From IMG/VR virus record IMGVR_UViG_3300002835_000308, positions 1 through 48,615 of that record: 48,615 bases of DNA. The stretch is one strand, 5' to 3'. Positions 3,694 through 22,694 of this stretch are shown one piece after another (position 1 is the first letter of the stretch; each line of letters begins with the position of its first letter). The stretch comes from a virus. Below the pieces are notes generated by a model. It was not told the origin of the DNA and ran no database searches. It saw only the letters and a list, made by a program, of their open reading frames with translations. The position numbers and the translations under genes are program-made.

Positions 3694-6600
3694 ATGACTG
3701 CTGCCGGTACTATTCGTCTTTTTTCTCTTTCTTCGTCCTTCCTTGATGAATACAGGGATAAGCAACCAGAATGGGGTTACGCTGGGCTTGGTTACGTAGT
3801 TTATAAGCGCTGTGTGCATGCCGACACTCCTGTGTTGTGCGCAGATTTGTCTTGGAAGCCTGCGGGAAGTCTGAGTGTAGGGGAGCAACTTCTTGCATTT
3901 GAAGAAGGCTCAATGTCCCGTTCTCGGGACACCGGTCGCCCGCGCCACATGCTTGTGTCTACCGTCACTGATAACTCTACTGAACTTGCAGAGTGTGTGA
4001 AGATCACACTTTCAAATGGGGATGTGCTCACGTGTACTCCTGACCATTCTTGGCTCGTAAGGACTGGCTACGGTCTGGAGTGGGTGGAAGCAAAAGACCT
4101 ATTGTCTCGCAAGAAGTGTGAGTTCGTTAAGTATGCAGACGTGTGGGCTGAGGACACTTCGTATGAGGCTGGTTATCTAGCTGGTGCTTTTGACGGCGAA
4201 GGTTCTCTAGATCGCAAGCGGTCTTTGCAGTTCGTGCAGACAGACAACGCTATGTTGTCAGCTGTACAAGAGTTCCTTCTTAGGAAAGGCTACAAGTTCT
4301 CCATTGCCCAAAAGCAGCAGAGCAAGTTGGGGAAAAAGCCTTGCTTTGCTCTTAGCTTGCATAGCAATGCCCAAGTCATGCGTTTTTTGGGTGAGGTGAG
4401 ACCTCATCGGCTGCTGGAGAAGTATATAACTACTGTAGATACTATGGCTATGCGTCGAAAATACACGCACGTAACCGTATCCACTGTAGTATCCGTGGAA
4501 CCTGTAGGTCCACAGCCAGTAGCTATACTGAGTACTACGTCTAAGACGCACATAACTGCTGGTTATCCAAGCCACAATACCTACGCGCGTACTAAGGAAG
4601 ATGGTTCCCTTGAGGAGTTTTGGGAGACTTGTCAGCGTGTCGTAGAAGGTACCTACAACGTACAGAAGCGTCACTGCCACCAGCTGAAGCTTCCCTGGGA
4701 CGACCGAAAGGCACAGCGCTCTGCACAGGAAATGTTTCGGCGCATGTGGGAGTTCAAGTGGCTTCCTCCGGGACGTGGCCTGTGGATGATGGGCACCCAG
4801 ATGGTGGATAAGATCGGTAGCGGCGCTCTGAACAATTGTTTCAGTGGTGATACTGAAGCTGTAGTTTTCGACGATGACCTAGGCTTGACCACAGTTCCTC
4901 TACGTGACCTTGTGGGGCGTGAGTTCAACACACCCTTGAACTCCGGTATCGCTCGGGCGACGGTTAAGTCCTTTGGAGAGCAAGAACTGAACCACGTAAC
5001 ATTCAAGGTTCCCGGTAAGTCAAAATACGTGTTGGAGTATGATGTCACCGCTGACCATCGTTGGATTCTGTCAGACGGAACATCCACCACTTCTCTGAAA
5101 GTTGGTGACCGCGTTACTGTCTCTCCACGAACTGTGCATTCAAGTTTTCTTGAAACTTCTACTGGTTACAAGCGTGGATATGCCCATGGTCTAATCTACG
5201 GCGACGGCACCAGACATACATATTATCCAGAGCGCCACTTCATTCGCCTTTGTGGTAACAAGGAACAAGCACATGTCTCTCTGCTTGAGAGCATGCCTGA
5301 GTTTCTCTCTACTACACGTCCCGCTTCTTTTAACGGAGATGCAGTAGTTACCCTAAAGCTGAACAAGGGTGAAAACTGGAAGCAGGTTCCGGACAACACC
5401 AAAGATGTTGCATACTGTCGTGGTTTCATCGACGGTTGGCTCGCGGCTGATGGTCACACTGAAGCAAATGGAAGAAAGCAACTTGACTCAATCAATCTGG
5501 ACGGAATTCAGTGGCTGACTAAGCTGGCGCCAACGTGTGGTTACGTTGTTACTGGTTGGAGCGTGGATAACGCAGACACTAACTTCGGTCCAAGGTCGCA
5601 GCCGTTGAATCGCGTGACTTTGAGCACGTCACCTGTAGACCTTCTTGTGCAGTCAATCAGCCCGATTGGTAAACAGGAAGTTTTCTGCGCGGTGGTGCCT
5701 GACGCCAACAAGTTTGTTTTGGCTGGTGGCTTGGAAACCGGTAATTGTGGGTACGTGTCAACCGCTGACATCCATGTGGACTTTGCAGAACCCTTCTGCT
5801 GGCTCATGGACATGCTGATGCTTGGCGTAGGTATCGGCTTCGATACAAAAGGAGCAGGAAAGGTCAAGATTCAGAAGCCGTCTACGGTTGAAGGTTCCTT
5901 TGTAGTGGAGGATAGCCGTGAGGGCTGGGTCTCGCTGCTACGTGTCGTGCTCAACTCTTTCGTCGGCAAGGGCTCGGTCCCTGCTACTATCGACTACTCG
6001 AAGGTCAGGCCAGCAGGGTCCCCGATTAAGGGCTTTGGTGGCGTTGCCTCAGGACCTGATCCACTGAAGGAACTGATCGATAGCGTTCATGACATCCTTA
6101 ACCCTCTTATTGGCGAGCAGATTACTGCTTCTGCAATCGTAGACATCAGTAACCTGGTGGGACGTTGTGTAGTTGCAGGTAACGTGCGTCGATGTTTGCC
6201 AGCAGGAACACGGGTTCACACCAAGAAAGGACTCAAGCCTATTGAGGAGGTAAGGGTAGGCGACTTGGTGTTTACTAGTAAGGGTTGGTCTGCGGTAACA
6301 AACACGTTTGATCAAGGAGTTCAGAACGTCGTTACTGTGCATACCCAGCTTGGCCCGTTAAAGGCCACCAAGAATCATCAAGTAAAGGTTTTTACCTCTC
6401 CAACTGAGTTTACTTTCAAAAAAGTAGAAGATTTGCTTCCTGGGGACAGGTTGGTTTTTAACGCCCGCGCCCAGGACTACGAGCAGGAAGTTTCTCTTCC
6501 GTCATGGTCTTACGAAAAGTCAAAGCACTCCACAACTTGTGCAGATATTAACATTCCTGCTCTCGACGCAGACACGGCTTGGTTCCTGGGACTTCTGGCC

Positions 6601-9600
6601 GGAGACGGTTATGTGTATCCAAATACTGCTAAGAACGGCTTCAATGCCTACGTAAGTGTTGCATGCAGTCCAGATTACCCGGAAATAACAGAAGACTGTC
6701 AGAAGGTCCTTAAGTCTTTTGGCGTCAACCTCTGCGACGTTCTTCCGTCTGAACGTGACGCTGCTCACAAAGTGAGAGCACAGTCCAAACAACTGGCTTG
6801 GTATCTGAGCCAGTTTAAGGTTGCAAAGCAACCTATGTCTGTTCCTGAGTGTATTTTGTCTGGTTCTCCAGAACTTCGCGCAGCCTACGTGGCGGGCCTG
6901 TTTGATGCAGACGGGTCTACAAAAACACAGCCAACACAGATCGCTACCAGTGTGTACCCAACCTACCTTCAAGAGGTTCAGGCGGTTTTGGCTACACTAG
7001 GCATTCCATCTAGGTTTAAGCTTTGCCGACAAGCCACGGAAACGGAACAGGCGTTGTATGCTCTGACCGTTGTTGGAGAGCGCGCAGTAGAGCGTTTTAC
7101 AAACACAGTAGGATCTTTCTCCCGCAAGTTTAACAGGACAGCTAAGACCTCCAGAAGTCAGAATGACTACGGTTTTCCTGGTTCTTGGATCTCCTTTAAC
7201 TACGGAAGAGAATGGTCTTCTGCAAACAAGCAGATGACTGTGGCAACCTACGAGCGGATTCGTAATTGCACCTTGTCCGAGTACCCGGTAGAGGTGAACT
7301 CGATTGATTTGGAAAATTCAGAGGCTGCGCACACCTACGACTTGGAAGTTTCTGGGGTGCATGAGTTCGTTGTAGAGAGCGGACTAATCGTTCACAACTC
7401 CGCCGAAATAGCTTTTGGAAATCCAGACGACGAGGAGTTCCTAAATCTAAAGAACCCAGACATCAACAAGGAAGCACTGTACCACCACCGCTGGTCTTCC
7501 AATAACTCGGTGTTCGCGTATGAGGGTATGGATTATACTCGGGTGGCCGAGCTTACTGCCAAGAACGGAGAGCCTGGGTACGAATGGCTGGATAACGCGC
7601 GCAAGTTCTCTCGAATGGGAAGAGAGCCCGATTATTCAGACATGCGAGTAGCAGGAGCAAATCCTTGCTTCTCTGGAGATACTCTCGTTGCGGTTGCTGA
7701 CGGTCGTCATGCCGTTCCGTTCAAGCAGCTGGCTGAAGAAGGAAAGGATGTTCCTGTTTACTCTCTTAGCCCGGAAGGCAAGGTAGAGATCAAGTGGGGT
7801 CGCAATCCTAGAAAGACTCGTGAGGGCGCAAAGCTAGTACGTATCCATATGGATACAGGCGACTATTTGGATGTTACTCCTGACCACAAGGTCATTTTGC
7901 GTGATGGAACTATCAAGCACGCCAAGGATCTGAATAAGGGAGACAGTCTTCCTATCGCCAAGAAGTACAAGGACAAAGTGGTGAAGGATGGAGGACAATA
8001 CTGGCGCGTTCAGACTGACCTATCTAAGCCAGAACGTGTTTTTGAGCACCGCCTAGTAGCTAAGTTCTTCCAACCTGAGAAGTGGGCTGAGTTGTACGAC
8101 GAAGCCAAGGCGAATGGATGGATTAAGGGCGGAGTGGTAGTTCATCACAAGGACTACAACCCACTGAACAACGCACCAGAAAACCTTGAAGTTATGACTT
8201 TCAAGGACCACGCTCAGCTTCATGGAGACTATGACCGTGTGGGCGAGAAGAATGGAATGTTCGGAAAGTCCCACAGTGTAGAGACCAAGGCTAAGATTGG
8301 TGCAAAGACTTCGGAACGGATGTCCGACCCAGAGTTCCTCATGCGCTTGAGTAACTCTCACACAAAGGAAGAGCGAGCACAGGCATCTGCACGTCTCAAA
8401 GAGTCCAAAGCAGAGTGGGACAAGGAGTACTACCTAGAGCAGGAGCGCACTACGGACCTTGAAACTGTTTGGGTTGGTGACCGCATGTTCGCTAAAAAGA
8501 CCTGCGAACACTGTGGCACTGGTTTCACAGTTCCCTGGGGTAAGCGCGATCGGCTTTACTGCTCTACGGCGTGTTTCAACGTCTACCTTCAGGGACTAGA
8601 AGCTCGTAAAAACGGACAGCGCACTGCGTTTACGCATCGTCAACAGGGGATTCTTCACGAACAGGTGATGGTCTACAAGGATCTTCAGTCTTCATTGTCT
8701 CGGGATCCTATGAAGAAGGAGTGGGAGTCTGCGTGCAAGACAAAGAACGTATCCTACCGATTCCGAAGCGGTGTGTCTTCCAGCAAGAATCCCTACGCGT
8801 TAACTTCGTTCGAAGACCTGAAGAAGCGTGCGGCGGAGTACAATCATAGGGTTGTGAGAGTTGAAGAACTAGAGGGTGAGCACGATGTGTACAACATCAC
8901 AGTAGAAACCCACCACACTGTGATGGTATCATTGACACGAGACCTAAACGCCTCCGCGTTCTACATGCAAGGGCTGTGCCAGTGTGTGGAGCAATCCCTC
9001 GAAGATCGAGAGTTGTGCTGTTTAGTAGAGACCTTCCCAGGAAGGCACGAATCTGTCGCAGACTTCCAGAAGACACTGAAATACGCGTACTTGTATGCTA
9101 AGACCGTGACTTTGATTCCTACTCATGACGCACGCACGAACACGGTTTTGATGAGAAACCGTAGAATTGGGTGCAGTATGAGCGGCATTACTCAGGCTAT
9201 CCAAAAGTTTGGTCGTAGGAACTTCTTGAACAAGTTCTGTGATGACGGGTACAAATATCTCAAGCAGCTAGACCAGCTTTATAGTGATTGGCTGTGTGTT
9301 CGTCCTTCGATTAAGATTACTTCCGTAAAGCCCTCGGGCTCCGTGAGTCTTCTTCCTGGCGTAACACCTGGTATTCACTTCCCCCACGCTGAATATTACG
9401 TTCGTCGCGTAAGACTTCAGGCTAACTCTCCTCTTGTAAACAAGCTGTACATCGCTGGCTATCCCATAGAAGATGATAAGTACAGCCCAAATACTAAGGT
9501 TGCTACCTTTCCTGTTAGGGAAGCTAACTATGACAGGTCTAAAGACCAGGTAACTATGTGGGAACAGCTGGAGCTTGCAGCCGCGCTACAGCAATACTGG

Positions 9601-9864
9601 GCGGATAATCAAGTATCCGTTACTGTTACGTTCAACGCTCAAGAGGCTAAGGACATCAAGTACGCCCTAGAATTGTACGAAACTAGGCTAAAGGGTGTTA
9701 GCTTCCTTCCTCTAAGCGACCACGGATACGAGCAGGCTCCTTACGAAACTATCACTAAGGAGCAGTATGAGGCTATGGTCAAGGACATAACACCTCTCTC
9801 CGCAGAGCTGTTGCAGCACGAGCAGACAACCAAGTTCTGCGACGGCGAATCCTGCACAATCTAA
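3694..9864 (+). CDS. Class II ribonucleoside-triphosphate reductase with four inteins
   Basis: 2056 codons, of which only 656 encode the enzyme: residues 1-39, 296-381, 685-833, 1236-1324 and 1764-2056. Removing four in-frame inteins gives an adenosylcobalamin-dependent RNR similar to the monomeric Lactobacillus leichmannii enzyme (739 residues, from memory). All five working cysteines can be placed: Cys685 (C119 equivalent, first residue after intein 2), Cys1764 (radical cysteine C408, first residue after intein 4), Cys1775 (C419, the same 11-residue spacing) and the C-terminal pair Cys2049/Cys2054 in CDGESC (C731/C736, the same 5-residue spacing). It makes deoxynucleotides for phage replication without oxygen or a second subunit. 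Strong AGGAG site before the ATG. No enzyme activity is expected before splicing. Confidence 0.95.
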   Translation: MTAAGTIRLFSLSSSFLDEYRDKQPEWGYAGLGYVVYKRCVHADTPVLCADLSWKPAGSLSVGEQLLAFEEGSMSRSRDTGRPRHMLVSTVTDNSTELAECVKITLSNGDVLTCTPDHSWLVRTGYGLEWVEAKDLLSRKKCEFVKYADVWAEDTSYEAGYLAGAFDGEGSLDRKRSLQFVQTDNAMLSAVQEFLLRKGYKFSIAQKQQSKLGKKPCFALSLHSNAQVMRFLGEVRPHRLLEKYITTVDTMAMRRKYTHVTVSTVVSVEPVGPQPVAILSTTSKTHITAGYPSHNTYARTKEDGSLEEFWETCQRVVEGTYNVQKRHCHQLKLPWDDRKAQRSAQEMFRRMWEFKWLPPGRGLWMMGTQMVDKIGSGALNNCFSGDTEAVVFDDDLGLTTVPLRDLVGREFNTPLNSGIARATVKSFGEQELNHVTFKVPGKSKYVLEYDVTADHRWILSDGTSTTSLKVGDRVTVSPRTVHSSFLETSTGYKRGYAHGLIYGDGTRHTYYPERHFIRLCGNKEQAHVSLLESMPEFLSTTRPASFNGDAVVTLKLNKGENWKQVPDNTKDVAYCRGFIDGWLAADGHTEANGRKQLDSINLDGIQWLTKLAPTCGYVVTGWSVDNADTNFGPRSQPLNRVTLSTSPVDLLVQSISPIGKQEVFCAVVPDANKFVLAGGLETGNCGYVSTADIHVDFAEPFCWLMDMLMLGVGIGFDTKGAGKVKIQKPSTVEGSFVVEDSREGWVSLLRVVLNSFVGKGSVPATIDYSKVRPAGSPIKGFGGVASGPDPLKELIDSVHDILNPLIGEQITASAIVDISNLVGRCVVAGNVRRCLPAGTRVHTKKGLKPIEEVRVGDLVFTSKGWSAVTNTFDQGVQNVVTVHTQLGPLKATKNHQVKVFTSPTEFTFKKVEDLLPGDRLVFNARAQDYEQEVSLPSWSYEKSKHSTTCADINIPALDADTAWFLGLLAGDGYVYPNTAKNGFNAYVSVACSPDYPEITEDCQKVLKSFGVNLCDVLPSERDAAHKVRAQSKQLAWYLSQFKVAKQPMSVPECILSGSPELRAAYVAGLFDADGSTKTQPTQIATSVYPTYLQEVQAVLATLGIPSRFKLCRQATETEQALYALTVVGERAVERFTNTVGSFSRKFNRTAKTSRSQNDYGFPGSWISFNYGREWSSANKQMTVATYERIRNCTLSEYPVEVNSIDLENSEAAHTYDLEVSGVHEFVVESGLIVHNSAEIAFGNPDDEEFLNLKNPDINKEALYHHRWSSNNSVFAYEGMDYTRVAELTAKNGEPGYEWLDNARKFSRMGREPDYSDMRVAGANPCFSGDTLVAVADGRHAVPFKQLAEEGKDVPVYSLSPEGKVEIKWGRNPRKTREGAKLVRIHMDTGDYLDVTPDHKVILRDGTIKHAKDLNKGDSLPIAKKYKDKVVKDGGQYWRVQTDLSKPERVFEHRLVAKFFQPEKWAELYDEAKANGWIKGGVVVHHKDYNPLNNAPENLEVMTFKDHAQLHGDYDRVGEKNGMFGKSHSVETKAKIGAKTSERMSDPEFLMRLSNSHTKEERAQASARLKESKAEWDKEYYLEQERTTDLETVWVGDRMFAKKTCEHCGTGFTVPWGKRDRLYCSTACFNVYLQGLEARKNGQRTAFTHRQQGILHEQVMVYKDLQSSLSRDPMKKEWESACKTKNVSYRFRSGVSSSKNPYALTSFEDLKKRAAEYNHRVVRVEELEGEHDVYNITVETHHTVMVSLTRDLNASAFYMQGLCQCVEQSLEDRELCCLVETFPGRHESVADFQKTLKYAYLYAKTVTLIPTHDARTNTVLMRNRRIGCSMSGITQAIQKFGRRNFLNKFCDDGYKYLKQLDQLYSDWLCVRPSIKITSVKPSGSVSLLPGVTPGIHFPHAEYYVRRVRLQANSPLVNKLYIAGYPIEDDKYSPNTKVATFPVREANYDRSKDQVTMWEQLELAAALQQYWADNQVSVTVTFNAQEAKDIKYALELYETRLKGVSFLPLSDHGYEQAPYETITKEQYEAMVKDITPLSAELLQHEQTTKFCDGESCTI
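3811..4578 (+). mobile_element. RNR intein 1 (LAGLIDADG-like)
   Basis: 256 residues, protein positions 40-295. It begins with Cys, has a block-B TPDH motif (about residue 112), and ends in SHN followed by Thr as the +1 nucleophile. A LAGLIDADG-like segment, YLAGAFDGEGSL, lies in the middle, so a DOD-type homing endonuclease is or was present; I see only one clear copy of that motif, so it may be degenerate or dimeric. The joined host sequence reads YKR-TYAR, a conserved RNR segment. Confidence 0.9.
4837..5745 (+). mobile_element. RNR intein 2 (LAGLIDADG endonuclease)
   Basis: 303 residues, protein positions 382-684. It begins CFSGDT, carries TADH in block B, and ends ETGN followed by Cys. 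The penultimate residue is Gly instead of the usual His. Two endonuclease motifs are visible: AHGLIYGDGT and FIDGWLAADG. The +1 residue, Cys685, is the equivalent of catalytic C119, so the insertion is exactly at an active-site cysteine. Confidence 0.92.
6193..7398 (+). mobile_element. RNR intein 3 (LAGLIDADG endonuclease)
   Basis: 402 residues, protein positions 834-1235. It begins CLPAGT, has TKNH in block B, and ends GLIVHN followed by Ser. Two clear endonuclease motifs: WFLGLLAGDGYV and YVAGLFDADGST. The joined host sequence reads NVRR-SAEIAFG. The canonical His-Asn end and both intact motifs suggest an active intein. Confidence 0.94.
7666..8982 (+). mobile_element. RNR intein 4 (HNH/NUMOD-like endonuclease, C-terminal Gln)
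   Basis: 439 residues, protein positions 1325-1763. It begins CFSGDT and has TPDH in block B. The insert is not LAGLIDADG but an HNH-type domain (VVHHKDYNPLNNAPENLEVM), followed by a NUMOD3-like segment (NGMFGKSHSVETKAKIG) and a zinc finger (CEHCG with CSTAC). The last residues are GLCQ followed by Cys1764, so the terminal residue is Gln rather than Asn and the penultimate is Cys rather than His. Cys1764 is the radical cysteine. Start and end are fixed by RNR homology: NP joined to CVEQSLEDRELC. Confidence 0.9.
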
Positions 9865-13911: not shown

Positions 13912-13984
13912 CCGGTATGAGTTCCTGGTCGGACTACCGAGTCTTATAAACTTAGTGCGCTGGGTTCAATTCCCAGATACCGGA
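13912..13984 (+). tRNA. tRNA-Ile(TAT), slightly degenerate
   Basis: Acceptor CCGGTAT/ATACCGG and T stem CTGGG/CCCAG are perfect. The anticodon loop is read as CTTATAA (anticodon TAT) on a weak stem GAGT/ACTT. The D arm is irregular. Reads AUA, the rarest isoleucine codon in GC-rich bacteria. Identity is less certain than for the others. Confidence 0.65.
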
Positions 13985-13995
13985 TGCACTTAAAG

Positions 13996-14541
13996 ATGGC
14001 CAAAGAGCATCGAACATTACTGTTGAACTCTACTTACGAGCCTTTGAGAGTAATTTCATGGCAAAGGGCTGTAATTTTGTGGTTTGAAGGCAAGGTTGAA
14101 GTTGTAGAAGAATACTCTGACTTCAATTTAACGTCTATGACCTTCAACATAAAGTGCCCCGCTGTTGTTCGTCTCTTGGCCTACGTGAACGGCAACCGTA
14201 ACAAGGTGAAGTTCTCACGGGTTAACGTATTCTCACGCGATAAATATTCGTGCCAATATTGCAACGCTCAGCCAGGATCTGCTAGCCTTACCTACGACCA
14301 TGTAATTCCGAGGTCAAAAGGTGGAAAGACCGTGTGGGAGAACATCGTAACTTGCTGTGTTTCTTGTAACTCTAAGAAAGCAGACAGAACCCCTGCAGAG
14401 GCCAGGATGACGCTGAGAAACAAGCCTGTTAAACCAGACTGGAACCCTAGAACAAAGCTGATAATCTGTTTACCCGCAACACCTGACCAGTGGCGTGACT
14501 ATCTGTACTGGAACTCGGAGTTAGAGAATGACAACATCTAA
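13996..14541 (+). CDS. HNH endonuclease
   Basis: 181 residues from the ATG at 13996 (an in-frame ATG at 13984 is the tRNA discriminator base itself). The N-terminal LLLNSTYEPLRVISWQRAV is typical of phage and actinobacterial HNH proteins. The core is CQYC, then DHVIPRSKGG, then WENIVTCCVSCNSKK: two Cys pairs coordinating structural zinc and the catalytic His-Asn-His. It may be a free-standing homing endonuclease that colonised the tRNA cluster, or act in packaging or DNA processing. No clear ribosome-binding site; see the note on tRNA-processed messages. Confidence 0.88.
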   Translation: MAKEHRTLLLNSTYEPLRVISWQRAVILWFEGKVEVVEEYSDFNLTSMTFNIKCPAVVRLLAYVNGNRNKVKFSRVNVFSRDKYSCQYCNAQPGSASLTYDHVIPRSKGGKTVWENIVTCCVSCNSKKADRTPAEARMTLRNKPVKPDWNPRTKLIICLPATPDQWRDYLYWNSELENDNI

Positions 14542-19929: not shown

Positions 19930-20451
19930 ATGAATCTGTATCTAGATTTGAACAAAGCTGTACAAATACCTTCTACAGGTACTGACTCTGTTACAGGAGC
20001 CAGAGCAGCGCGTTCTTACGAAGAGTCGTTCACCAGGCACAGTTCTGGTGCTCTGGGTGGTGACGCGTCTCCGGATGACCCGGATGTTGGACGCAAATGG
20101 CGCAAGGCAGAGCAAGGAGATCCAGAGTCACTAGATGCCGAGTTAGAGAAGGACCGAGAGAAAGACTCACAGATTGCACAGGAACGTGGAATAGTAGTTA
20201 GAAAAGAAGAAGTTAAAGACACTAACAAGGCACTGGAGATACTGAAATCTCTTTCAGGTGATTTACACGAACAGCTAGCCTACTATATGCCAAATGAACG
20301 GGAGGTTGAGTACCTGACTGTGGTTAAAGGCAATTCTGTGGAAGATGTGATGAAGGGTTATGTCAGAATTTCTGGCTACGAACGTGCCAGGTTTAACGAA
20401 TGGCTGCATACTAGGCTCATGTCTTCGATACACAAATTGGTGGTTAAATGA
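19930..20451 (+). CDS. Hypothetical head-operon protein
   Basis: 173 residues; the N-terminus MNLYLDLNKAV resembles that of the preceding 776-residue protein (MNLFLHDMNKSF). A charged middle is followed by EILKSLSGDLHEQ and a helical C-terminus. No domain recognised. ATGA overlap with the portal gene suggests stoichiometric or ordered synthesis. Confidence 0.6.
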   Translation: MNLYLDLNKAVQIPSTGTDSVTGARAARSYEESFTRHSSGALGGDASPDDPDVGRKWRKAEQGDPESLDAELEKDREKDSQIAQERGIVVRKEEVKDTNKALEILKSLSGDLHEQLAYYMPNEREVEYLTVVKGNSVEDVMKGYVRISGYERARFNEWLHTRLMSSIHKLVVK

Positions 20452-22694
20452 CTTCGCTTCCTGACTACACGCAATGGGTAGAGAAGGTGTCTGAGTGGAG
20501 AGACGCCACCAGCATGATACCTGCTGTGGTTCACGATGAGATAGTGAAATCTAAGCTTGACCCAGCAAAAGCTAAGCAAGGTCCTCGTTCGCTTGTATTC
20601 GACCCACTGTCCGTCCAGTTCGCGATGGGTTACAAGGATCGTAGGTATTCACTTACCTACGAAACGTTAAAGCGTATACCCACGCAGCTTTCTTTGATTG
20701 CTGCAATCATACAGACTAGGTGTAATCAAGTAGCCTCTTTCGCTGTTCCGTTTAGGATGACTAAGTCTCTTGGCTTCGCCATCAAGCACAAGAATCCTGC
20801 GCGCCTAACCACGAAGGGTGAACGCGAGTTCATACAGAGCTTGGAATCCTTCATCTATCAGTGCGGGGCACCTGATCCGAATCCGCACAGTGCAATCATA
20901 AGAGATGATTTCGAAACATTTTTAAAGAAGCTGGTCAGAGACTCTCTCATGTTTGACCAGGCTTGCCACGTAGCTGGTACGCAAGTAACACTTGCTGACG
21001 GTACGACCAAGTCCATTGAGGACATAGAGGTAGGAGACATCGTAATCTCGCACGACGGAAATCCCCACAAGGTATTACACCCTACACAGCGATTGTTTAC
21101 TGGAAATCTGTGTACAATCAAATCTAGGGGCGTTGCTGTCACTGCCACAAGTAACCATCCTTTGTTGGTGCTAACCAACAAGCAGGCACACTTAGCGCAA
21201 CAGCACGTTGACCATAAGCCTGAGTGGATTCCTGCAGGTGACGTAACAGTTGATATGTACCTAACCTACCCCAAGGTTAAACTTCCTACTACTTGCCATT
21301 CTTCATTTAGCCCATTTACGCACGATCTGTTTGATGATTCTTATTTTTACATAAGAGTTGACGACGTCACAACGGAAGCGGTCGAGAGTCACCCAGTCTA
21401 CAACATGGAAGTAGAGGACACGCACAGCTATATAGCTAATGGTTACGTGTCTCACAATTGTTTCGAAATTGTACCAGATCGCAAAGGGCAGCCTTACGAA
21501 TTCCTAGCTATTGACGCGTCTACTATTCGGCTGGCAGCCAACAACTTAGACATGTCTTTTTCCACGGCAAATAGGCTGAACAACAACCTATACACAGGAA
21601 TTAGTCCAGCCGCTAATCAAGCGTCACCGTACAAGACCCTTCAGGTTAGAAATCCAGAAACCCAAGACGTACCTTCATATGTGCAAATCATAAACGGACA
21701 AATACGTAACACATATACGTACAACGAACTAGCTTGGGGTGTAAGAAACCCAAGAAGCGATATCTACATTCAGGGTTACGGCTACGGAGAGCTTGAGCAG
21801 CTAGTAACTACGATTACTGCTCATTTGTATGCAGAGGAATACAATCGAAGGTTCTTCATGCAAGGGTCTGCACCTAAGGGCATACTTAACTTCAAGGGAG
21901 ACAACTTAACTCCTGACCAGCTTGAGGCTTTCCGACGTCAATGGAGAGCCAATCTTGAAGGCACAGAAAATTCTTGGCGCACACCAATTCTGCAGACGGA
22001 ACAAGGAGTGGATTGGATCAACCTACATCCTTCGAATCAAGAAATGGAGTACGGTCAGTGGATGGAGTATCTACTTAAGCTGACTTGCGCTGTTTTCCTA
22101 ATAGACCCAGCAGAGCTAAACTTCGACATGCATGGAGGAGTTCAGCAAACACCTCTATTTGAGTCTTCACAAGAATGGAAGTTAAAGGCCAGTCGTGATC
22201 GTGGCCTAAAGCCCATGCTTCGCTTCATAGCAAAGCTAATCAACAATCATGTAGTTTCGAAGATCGACGACCATTTCATGTTCGACTTCATGGGGCTAGA
22301 TGAACTTACGGAGCAGGAGAAGCACGAGCTTCGCAAGGAACAAGTAAGCACGTATATGACCCTGAACGAAATCAGAAGGGCTGAAGACCTTCCTGATGTT
22401 CCTGACGGTGACATAATTCTTAACCCAACGTATACTACTGCACAGCAACAACGAAAGCAGTTGCTAATGCAGCAGCAACAGCTGGCTGCGTCCAGCGCAG
22501 CGCCTGCTGCACCTCCCCCAACTGAAGAAGAAGCGCCACAAGCGCAGAGCGGCAATGAGCCTTCTCCCGAAAAGCAACAAAACAATCAAGGTCCCCAGTA
22601 TGCTGACAGCTTCACAAAGTCTCTTAAGGTACTTGAGATAAACCTCGAAGACGAATCAGAGTCTTGGATAGACATCTACCGGGGCTCAAAATGA
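20448..22694 (+). CDS. Portal protein with mini-intein
   Basis: 748 codons; 583 remain after splicing out residues 173-337. The mature sequence has the features of a phage portal: LSLIAAIIQTRCNQVASFA near the start, the wing and stem region (LLKLTCAVFLIDPAELNF, GGVQQTPLFESSQEWK), and a Gln-rich, acidic C-terminal tail. The portal forms the dodecameric DNA channel at one capsid vertex. Splicing joins DQA to CFEIVPD. The tail contains FTKSLKVLEINLE, one of the recurrent KSL motifs. It overlaps both neighbours by 4 bp. Confidence 0.88.
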   Translation: MTSLPDYTQWVEKVSEWRDATSMIPAVVHDEIVKSKLDPAKAKQGPRSLVFDPLSVQFAMGYKDRRYSLTYETLKRIPTQLSLIAAIIQTRCNQVASFAVPFRMTKSLGFAIKHKNPARLTTKGEREFIQSLESFIYQCGAPDPNPHSAIIRDDFETFLKKLVRDSLMFDQACHVAGTQVTLADGTTKSIEDIEVGDIVISHDGNPHKVLHPTQRLFTGNLCTIKSRGVAVTATSNHPLLVLTNKQAHLAQQHVDHKPEWIPAGDVTVDMYLTYPKVKLPTTCHSSFSPFTHDLFDDSYFYIRVDDVTTEAVESHPVYNMEVEDTHSYIANGYVSHNCFEIVPDRKGQPYEFLAIDASTIRLAANNLDMSFSTANRLNNNLYTGISPAANQASPYKTLQVRNPETQDVPSYVQIINGQIRNTYTYNELAWGVRNPRSDIYIQGYGYGELEQLVTTITAHLYAEEYNRRFFMQGSAPKGILNFKGDNLTPDQLEAFRRQWRANLEGTENSWRTPILQTEQGVDWINLHPSNQEMEYGQWMEYLLKLTCAVFLIDPAELNFDMHGGVQQTPLFESSQEWKLKASRDRGLKPMLRFIAKLINNHVVSKIDDHFMFDFMGLDELTEQEKHELRKEQVSTYMTLNEIRRAEDLPDVPDGDIILNPTYTTAQQQRKQLLMQQQQLAASSAAPAAPPPTEEEAPQAQSGNEPSPEKQQNNQGPQYADSFTKSLKVLEINLEDESESWIDIYRGSK
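20964..21458 (+). mobile_element. Portal mini-intein, no endonuclease
   Basis: 165 residues (173-337 of the protein). It starts CHVAGT, has GDIV in block A, TSNH in block B, VYNMEVEDTHSY in block F, and ends VSHN followed by Cys. There is no LAGLIDADG or HNH motif and the length is that of a minimal intein, so it can splice but not home by itself. Confidence 0.93.

Follow-up and report, generated by a model that had tools for sequence, protein, structure and literature searches.

Inteins have been described in or near the catalytic regions of several ribonucleotide reductases (RNRs). The split intein NrdJ-1 of a class II RNR (PDB 8ubs, PMC13123727) has its exteins, NPC/SEI (here and below a slash marks the point of insertion), in the radical-cysteine loop, as has the fourth of the inteins considered in this work; NrdJ-1, however, is split and inserted at NPC/S with Ser at position +1, whereas our intein 4 is contiguous, carries an HNH domain and lies at NP/C with Cys at +1. 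The intein of Aquifex aeolicus NrdB also lies within the active site of an RNR, where metal ligands flank it, and the spliced product is active (PMC8772380), but the protein is a class I small subunit with one intein, in contrast to the four in the class II enzyme predicted here. The RNR intein of Chilo iridescent virus, which is viral, ends in Gln like intein 4 and splices (PMC4031507), comes from an insect virus. Finally, the HNH-containing intein in the dCTP deaminase of Aphanizomenon phage CL131, 27% identical to intein 4, self-excises in E. coli (PMC6293099); it sits in a different host protein and ends in Lys-Asn, unlike intein 4, which ends in Cys-Gln. We compare with these systems an RNR gene of the window, by which we mean the whole 48,615-base virus record that was analysed, a record that encodes a portal protein, a major capsid protein and a head maturation protease and has 13 tRNA genes. 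We consider it very probable, judging from the comparisons below, that four mobile inteins invaded this phage class II RNR gene separately and that their presumed excision after translation would yield a 656-aa enzyme.

The ORF (Table 1) is uninterrupted from its ATG to its stop, 2056 aa in all, and the four inteins, of 256, 303, 402 and 439 aa, take up 68.1% of it; an earlier note on this DNA had proposed four inteins of these sizes and borders filling about 68% of the frame, and our computation agrees. The unspliced, intein-split ORF matches TIGR02505 with E 6e-84 and 282 bits, which is below the cut-off of 340. The L. leichmannii enzyme (1L1L), whose matches on the unspliced ORF are broken up by the inserts, aligns with the computed spliced product (656 aa, 74.2 kDa) with E 3.8e-102, giving the full-length homology expected of an NrdJm protein. 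Both matches bear out the earlier assignment to a phage class II RNR. We read the ORF as encoding a predicted phage monomeric adenosylcobalamin-dependent class II RNR (NrdJm), for which cofactor-dependent NTP reduction is assigned from homology.

Table 1. Positions, in the window, of the RNR gene, its inteins and catalytic cysteine codons, and of two further features of the virus record
Feature	Position	Strand	Description	Basis
RNR gene	3694..9864	+	monomeric class II, NrdJm, four inteins	TIGR02505 and 1L1L matches
Intein 1	3811..4578	+	256 aa, aa 40-295, LAGLIDADG, VYKR/C...SHN/TYAR, +1 Thr	
Intein 2	4837..5745	+	303 aa, aa 382-684, LAGLIDADG fold, LNN/C...TGN/CGYV, +1 Cys	
Cys685 codon	5746..5748	+	C119 equivalent, redox cysteine	1L1L alignment
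Intein 3	6193..7398	+	402 aa, aa 834-1235, LAGLIDADG, NVRR/C...VHN/SAEI, +1 Ser	
Intein 4	7666..8982	+	439 aa, aa 1325-1763, HNH and NUMOD3, ANP/C...GLCQ/CVEQ, +1 Cys	
Cys1764 codon	8983..8985	+	C408 equivalent, radical cysteine	1L1L alignment
Cys1775 codon	9016..9018	+	C419 equivalent	11 residues past C408 equivalent
HNH endonuclease gene	13984-14541		free-standing, within the 13-tRNA gene cluster	
Fifth intein	20964-21458		165-aa mini-intein in portal gene 20448-22694, FDQA/C...SHN/CFEIV	

Two phage contigs recovered by an IMG/VR scan (L007 and L008; L numbers are our handles for loci) carry an intein-free RNR of 656 aa. The spliced window RNR aligns with that of L007 over 656/656 residues with zero gaps, at 77.1% amino acid and 68.5% nucleotide identity, and an L007-type intein-free RNR is, by this alignment, its closest relative. 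The flanks of the junctions are the same or near-identical in L007 (YKR/TYAR, LNN/CG, VRR/SAEI and ANP/CVEQ), and computed excision of the inserts leaves a gap-free host protein; the earlier note had suggested checking such an alignment for junctions with gaps or repeated residues, and there are none. We note that intein-free NrdJm relatives, at 53-63%, also occur in L106-L185, metagenome-assembled contigs labelled Hydrogenedentota, Lokiarchaeota and Woesearchaeota. Because the gene is known from one contig of a single metagenome-derived virus record, one might suspect that the four-intein arrangement is an assembly artefact in which fragments of several alleles became joined. This strikes us as exceedingly improbable, considering that the gene is one open frame with gap-free junctions and phage-like codon usage, and that independent contigs carry related inteins at the same sites.

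The alignment with 1L1L places spliced residue C126 (ORF C685) at C119 and spliced C364 (ORF C1764) at C408. Intein 2 has the former at its +1 position and intein 4 the latter, just as had been claimed from the sequence. Spliced C375 is the equivalent of C419, the 11-residue spacing from C364 being the same as that between C408 and C419, while C649 and C654 are equated with C731 and C736 by position and spacing and not by the 1L1L alignment. The preservation of both spacings after intein removal, a further point of the earlier note, holds, and C126, C364, C375, C649 and C654 are all invariant in a 15-sequence alignment, so that the catalytic cysteine set of an NrdJm enzyme is complete.

All four inserts begin with Cys, contain the TxxH motif of block B, end in Asn (Gln in intein 4) and are followed by an acceptable +1 residue. 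The penultimate His, which is common but not required, is found in inteins 1 and 3; its place is taken by Gly in intein 2 (Gly-Asn) and by Cys in intein 4 (Cys-Gln). Splicing has been documented for inteins without it (PMC4031507), so its absence is no bar to counting inteins 2 and 4 among the class 1 inteins. Among Pfam families, LAGLIDADG_3 is matched in inteins 1 and 3, and Intein_splicing, HNH_3 and NUMOD3 in intein 4; Intein_splicing also scores above its cut-off for intein 3 and below it for intein 1, and intein 2 has no Pfam match. The AF2 model of intein 2 (pLDDT 90) matches PI-SceI, PI-PfuI and TliVMA/archaeal VMA inteins, and that of intein 4 (pLDDT 88) matches Hint/intein structures, NrdJ-1 among them. 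A Hint fold is thereby indicated for inteins 2 and 4 by the models and for inteins 3 and 4 by Pfam, and a homing endonuclease domain is recognizable in every intein, by Pfam in inteins 1, 3 and 4 and by fold in intein 2. The Pfam and NCBIfam intein matches, the folds that inteins 2 and 4 have in common with solved inteins and the same-site homologues in other viruses together exclude chance resemblance. The codon usage of the inteins does not stand out from that of the phage, giving no compositional sign of recent or foreign arrival.

The endings of inteins 2 and 4 raise the question of whether at least one of the inteins no longer splices, in which case the gene would be that of a decaying or inactive RNR. 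The penultimate Gly of intein 2, and the penultimate Cys and terminal Gln of intein 4, might be taken for damage, and either ending could slow the third step of splicing; moreover, some intein-bearing phage RNRs, those of Campylobacter phages, seem to be degenerating (PMC3653736). However, there is neither a stop nor a frameshift across the 6.2 kb of the ORF, and every catalytic cysteine is intact. In addition, GN endings are general within the intein 2 family, and among the 61 intein 4 family members whose C-terminal residue could be resolved 25 end in Gln and 36 in Asn, so that these endings look like family traits rather than damage. We therefore hold decay to be very unlikely. A pseudogene was likewise judged unlikely. 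Excision of all four inteins, the reading we prefer, receives indirect support from the intact family traits and, by analogy, from the self-excising relative of intein 4 in phage CL131 (PMC6293099).

All four insertion sites are recurrent, each with same-site relatives in other phage RNRs, which we obtained by tblastn on phages and by family-alignment scans. Scans of IMG/VR with the single sequences of inteins 1, 2 and 3 found nothing, as such patterns require close identity. Intein 1 has a same-site homologue in L033 and relatives in Gordonia and Mycobacterium phages. For intein 2, an intein 43% identical to it occupies the same site in L204, and further same-site relatives were found in L222, L272, L279, L282, L284, L285, L287-L289 and phage P318. 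A mixed class II/III alignment of this family was too divergent for scanning; a two-sequence alignment of intein 2 with the L204 intein was used instead and yielded 13 loci, eight at the RNR C119 site and five in other genes. Same-site relatives of intein 3 are present in L237 (44%), L253 (34%) and L024, the last a 136-aa form without the endonuclease.

The family-alignment scan for intein 4 was richer, returning 80 loci, among them 67 distinct viral contigs with the motif of this intein. The intein is preceded by NP in 64 of these 67 contigs, by NL in one and by NPC in two, so the radical cysteine is at +1 in 65/67, and in 2/67 the insertion lies one codon later. In these shifted relatives (L198 and L222, with NPC/C and NPC/S) C408 becomes the -1 extein residue instead of the nucleophile, an arrangement that agrees with the native NPC/SEI junction of NrdJ-1 (PMC13123727). 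When the nucleotides of site 4 are compared among intein carriers and intein-free RNRs, they are constrained mainly at positions where the amino acids are constrained, and no DNA target is therefore defined beyond the coding constraint. Other insertion points in NrdJm genes were also noticed: in the stretch that separates the C419 equivalent from the following Cys in L020, where the intein ends in Gln, and at KPSG/S or KPSG/T in L203, L245 and L287.

The two inteins at catalytic cysteines have relatives in other RNR classes as well. For intein 2, the relatives in the phage collection are NrdD inteins together with the same-site intein in the class II RNR of Thermobifida phage P318. Cys79 of T4 NrdD is the established counterpart of class II C119. 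The NrdD inteins of Morganella phage MP1, Klebsiella phage FBKp34 and Vibrio phage V6Aob, which are 28-31% relatives of intein 2, lie directly before the equivalent of this Cys79, with the difference that their host enzyme is class III and that of the window class II. The MP1 intein starts at aa 79, where the MP1 extein is gap-free against T4 NrdD (1h78), so that its +1 residue is Cys79. For intein 4, the NrdA inteins of Dickeya phage Coodle and Synechococcus phage S-CBWM1 have the N-terminal splicing block in common with it; they are inserted at NL/C of a class Ia NrdA and end in His-Asn, in contrast to the class II setting and Cys-Gln ending of intein 4. The NL/C site of class Ia NrdA is the position of the E. 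coli radical cysteine C439.

Judged by sequence and in a few phages, the intein 2 family is thus found at the redox cysteine of both class II (C119) and class III (C79) enzymes, and the intein 4 family at the radical cysteine of both class II (C408) and class Ia (C439) enzymes. Perhaps these two families spread between RNR classes by way of equivalent catalytic cysteines, the window gene being a site at which such inteins have piled up; we regard this as a reasonable but tentative proposal, to which we would give slightly less than even weight. The intein 2 family is also present in non-RNR genes, mostly at N/C sites, which makes a local sequence preference (Asn-Cys) a live alternative to active-site targeting. 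What the survey does suggest is that inteins have landed repeatedly, in different enzyme classes, on equivalent active-site cysteines of RNRs.

Returning to the separate invasion of the window gene, we envisage that four different inteins arrived on four separate occasions at conserved catalytic or near-catalytic stretches. Each Hint domain would excise itself after translation and join its flanks, giving the 656-aa, 74-kDa enzyme. Before the removal of inteins 2 and 4, the equivalents of C119 and C408 would be held apart from their neighbours and engaged as splicing nucleophiles, and the precursor should then be inactive, as we would expect from this geometry. The homing endonuclease domains, LAGLIDADG in inteins 1-3 and HNH in intein 4, could copy the inteins into L007-type alleles. 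Splicing, homing and the inactivity of the precursor are all features that we infer. The fact that two catalytic cysteines would double as splicing nucleophiles also invites the thought that the inserts are kept for regulation, excision at these redox and radical residues serving the infecting phage as a switch gated by redox state or by time. The activity of Aquifex R2 is doubled when the protein is produced from the gene that includes the intein (PMC8772380), and DnaB inteins have been proposed to be stress sensors (PMC6195587). Yet the nearest relative has no intein, these sites are occupied only sporadically and the homing endonuclease domains have been kept, a combination that favours selfish persistence, and we consider a regulatory role unlikely, if a shade less so than decay.

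The RNR gene is not the only intein-bearing gene of this virus. Removal of the fifth intein, in the portal gene (Table 1), leaves a gap-free junction against the portal of Bacillus phage SPO1 (FDQLSFEIV). Elsewhere, L195 (uncultured phage LR756508, 484 kb) has a portal-like gene with apparently three inteins, one of them related to intein 4, and in L024, whose RNR has two inteins, a nearby RecA-like gene (L024:9876-11441) has an apparent intein in its ATP-binding region (GPESC...VHN/SGKTT).

How unusual, then, is the window gene? Most of the inteinated RNR genes examined have one or two inteins; L287 has three (at the C119, C408 and KPSG/T sites) and L266 probably three, and among the loci of this non-exhaustive survey no other viral RNR has four. 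The full-length RNR scans rank intein-free loci first, so that intein counts drawn from them are biased low. The earlier note had called four inteins with this geometry in one phage enzyme uncommon. As to number this stands, the window RNR having the highest intein load that we found in a viral RNR. As to geometry it needs revision, since both catalytic sites are recurrent: the C119 and C408 sites are both occupied in L204, L279 and L287, and L222 shows the same pairing except that its second intein lies one codon further on, so that at least four contigs besides the window have such a pair.

Together with its 77% identical intein-free relative, the window RNR offers a clean natural system for studying the splicing of multiple inteins from one enzyme, for asking if active-site cysteines can act harmlessly as splicing nucleophiles and for following the competition for homing between neighbouring inteins. 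The Gln-ended, HNH-type inteins at the radical cysteine are in addition candidates for splicing tools. Compared with what has been described before, the rarity of the arrangement is tempered by a bacterial RNR with four inteins, that of Trichodesmium, published in 2003 (cited in PMC1635734); that gene also has introns, whereas the window gene is a phage gene whose ORF is without introns. Other genes with four intein sites have been described too, haloarchaeal MCM for example (PMC10643990). The window RNR is, in this company, a new and extreme case among selfish genetic elements of a kind already known.
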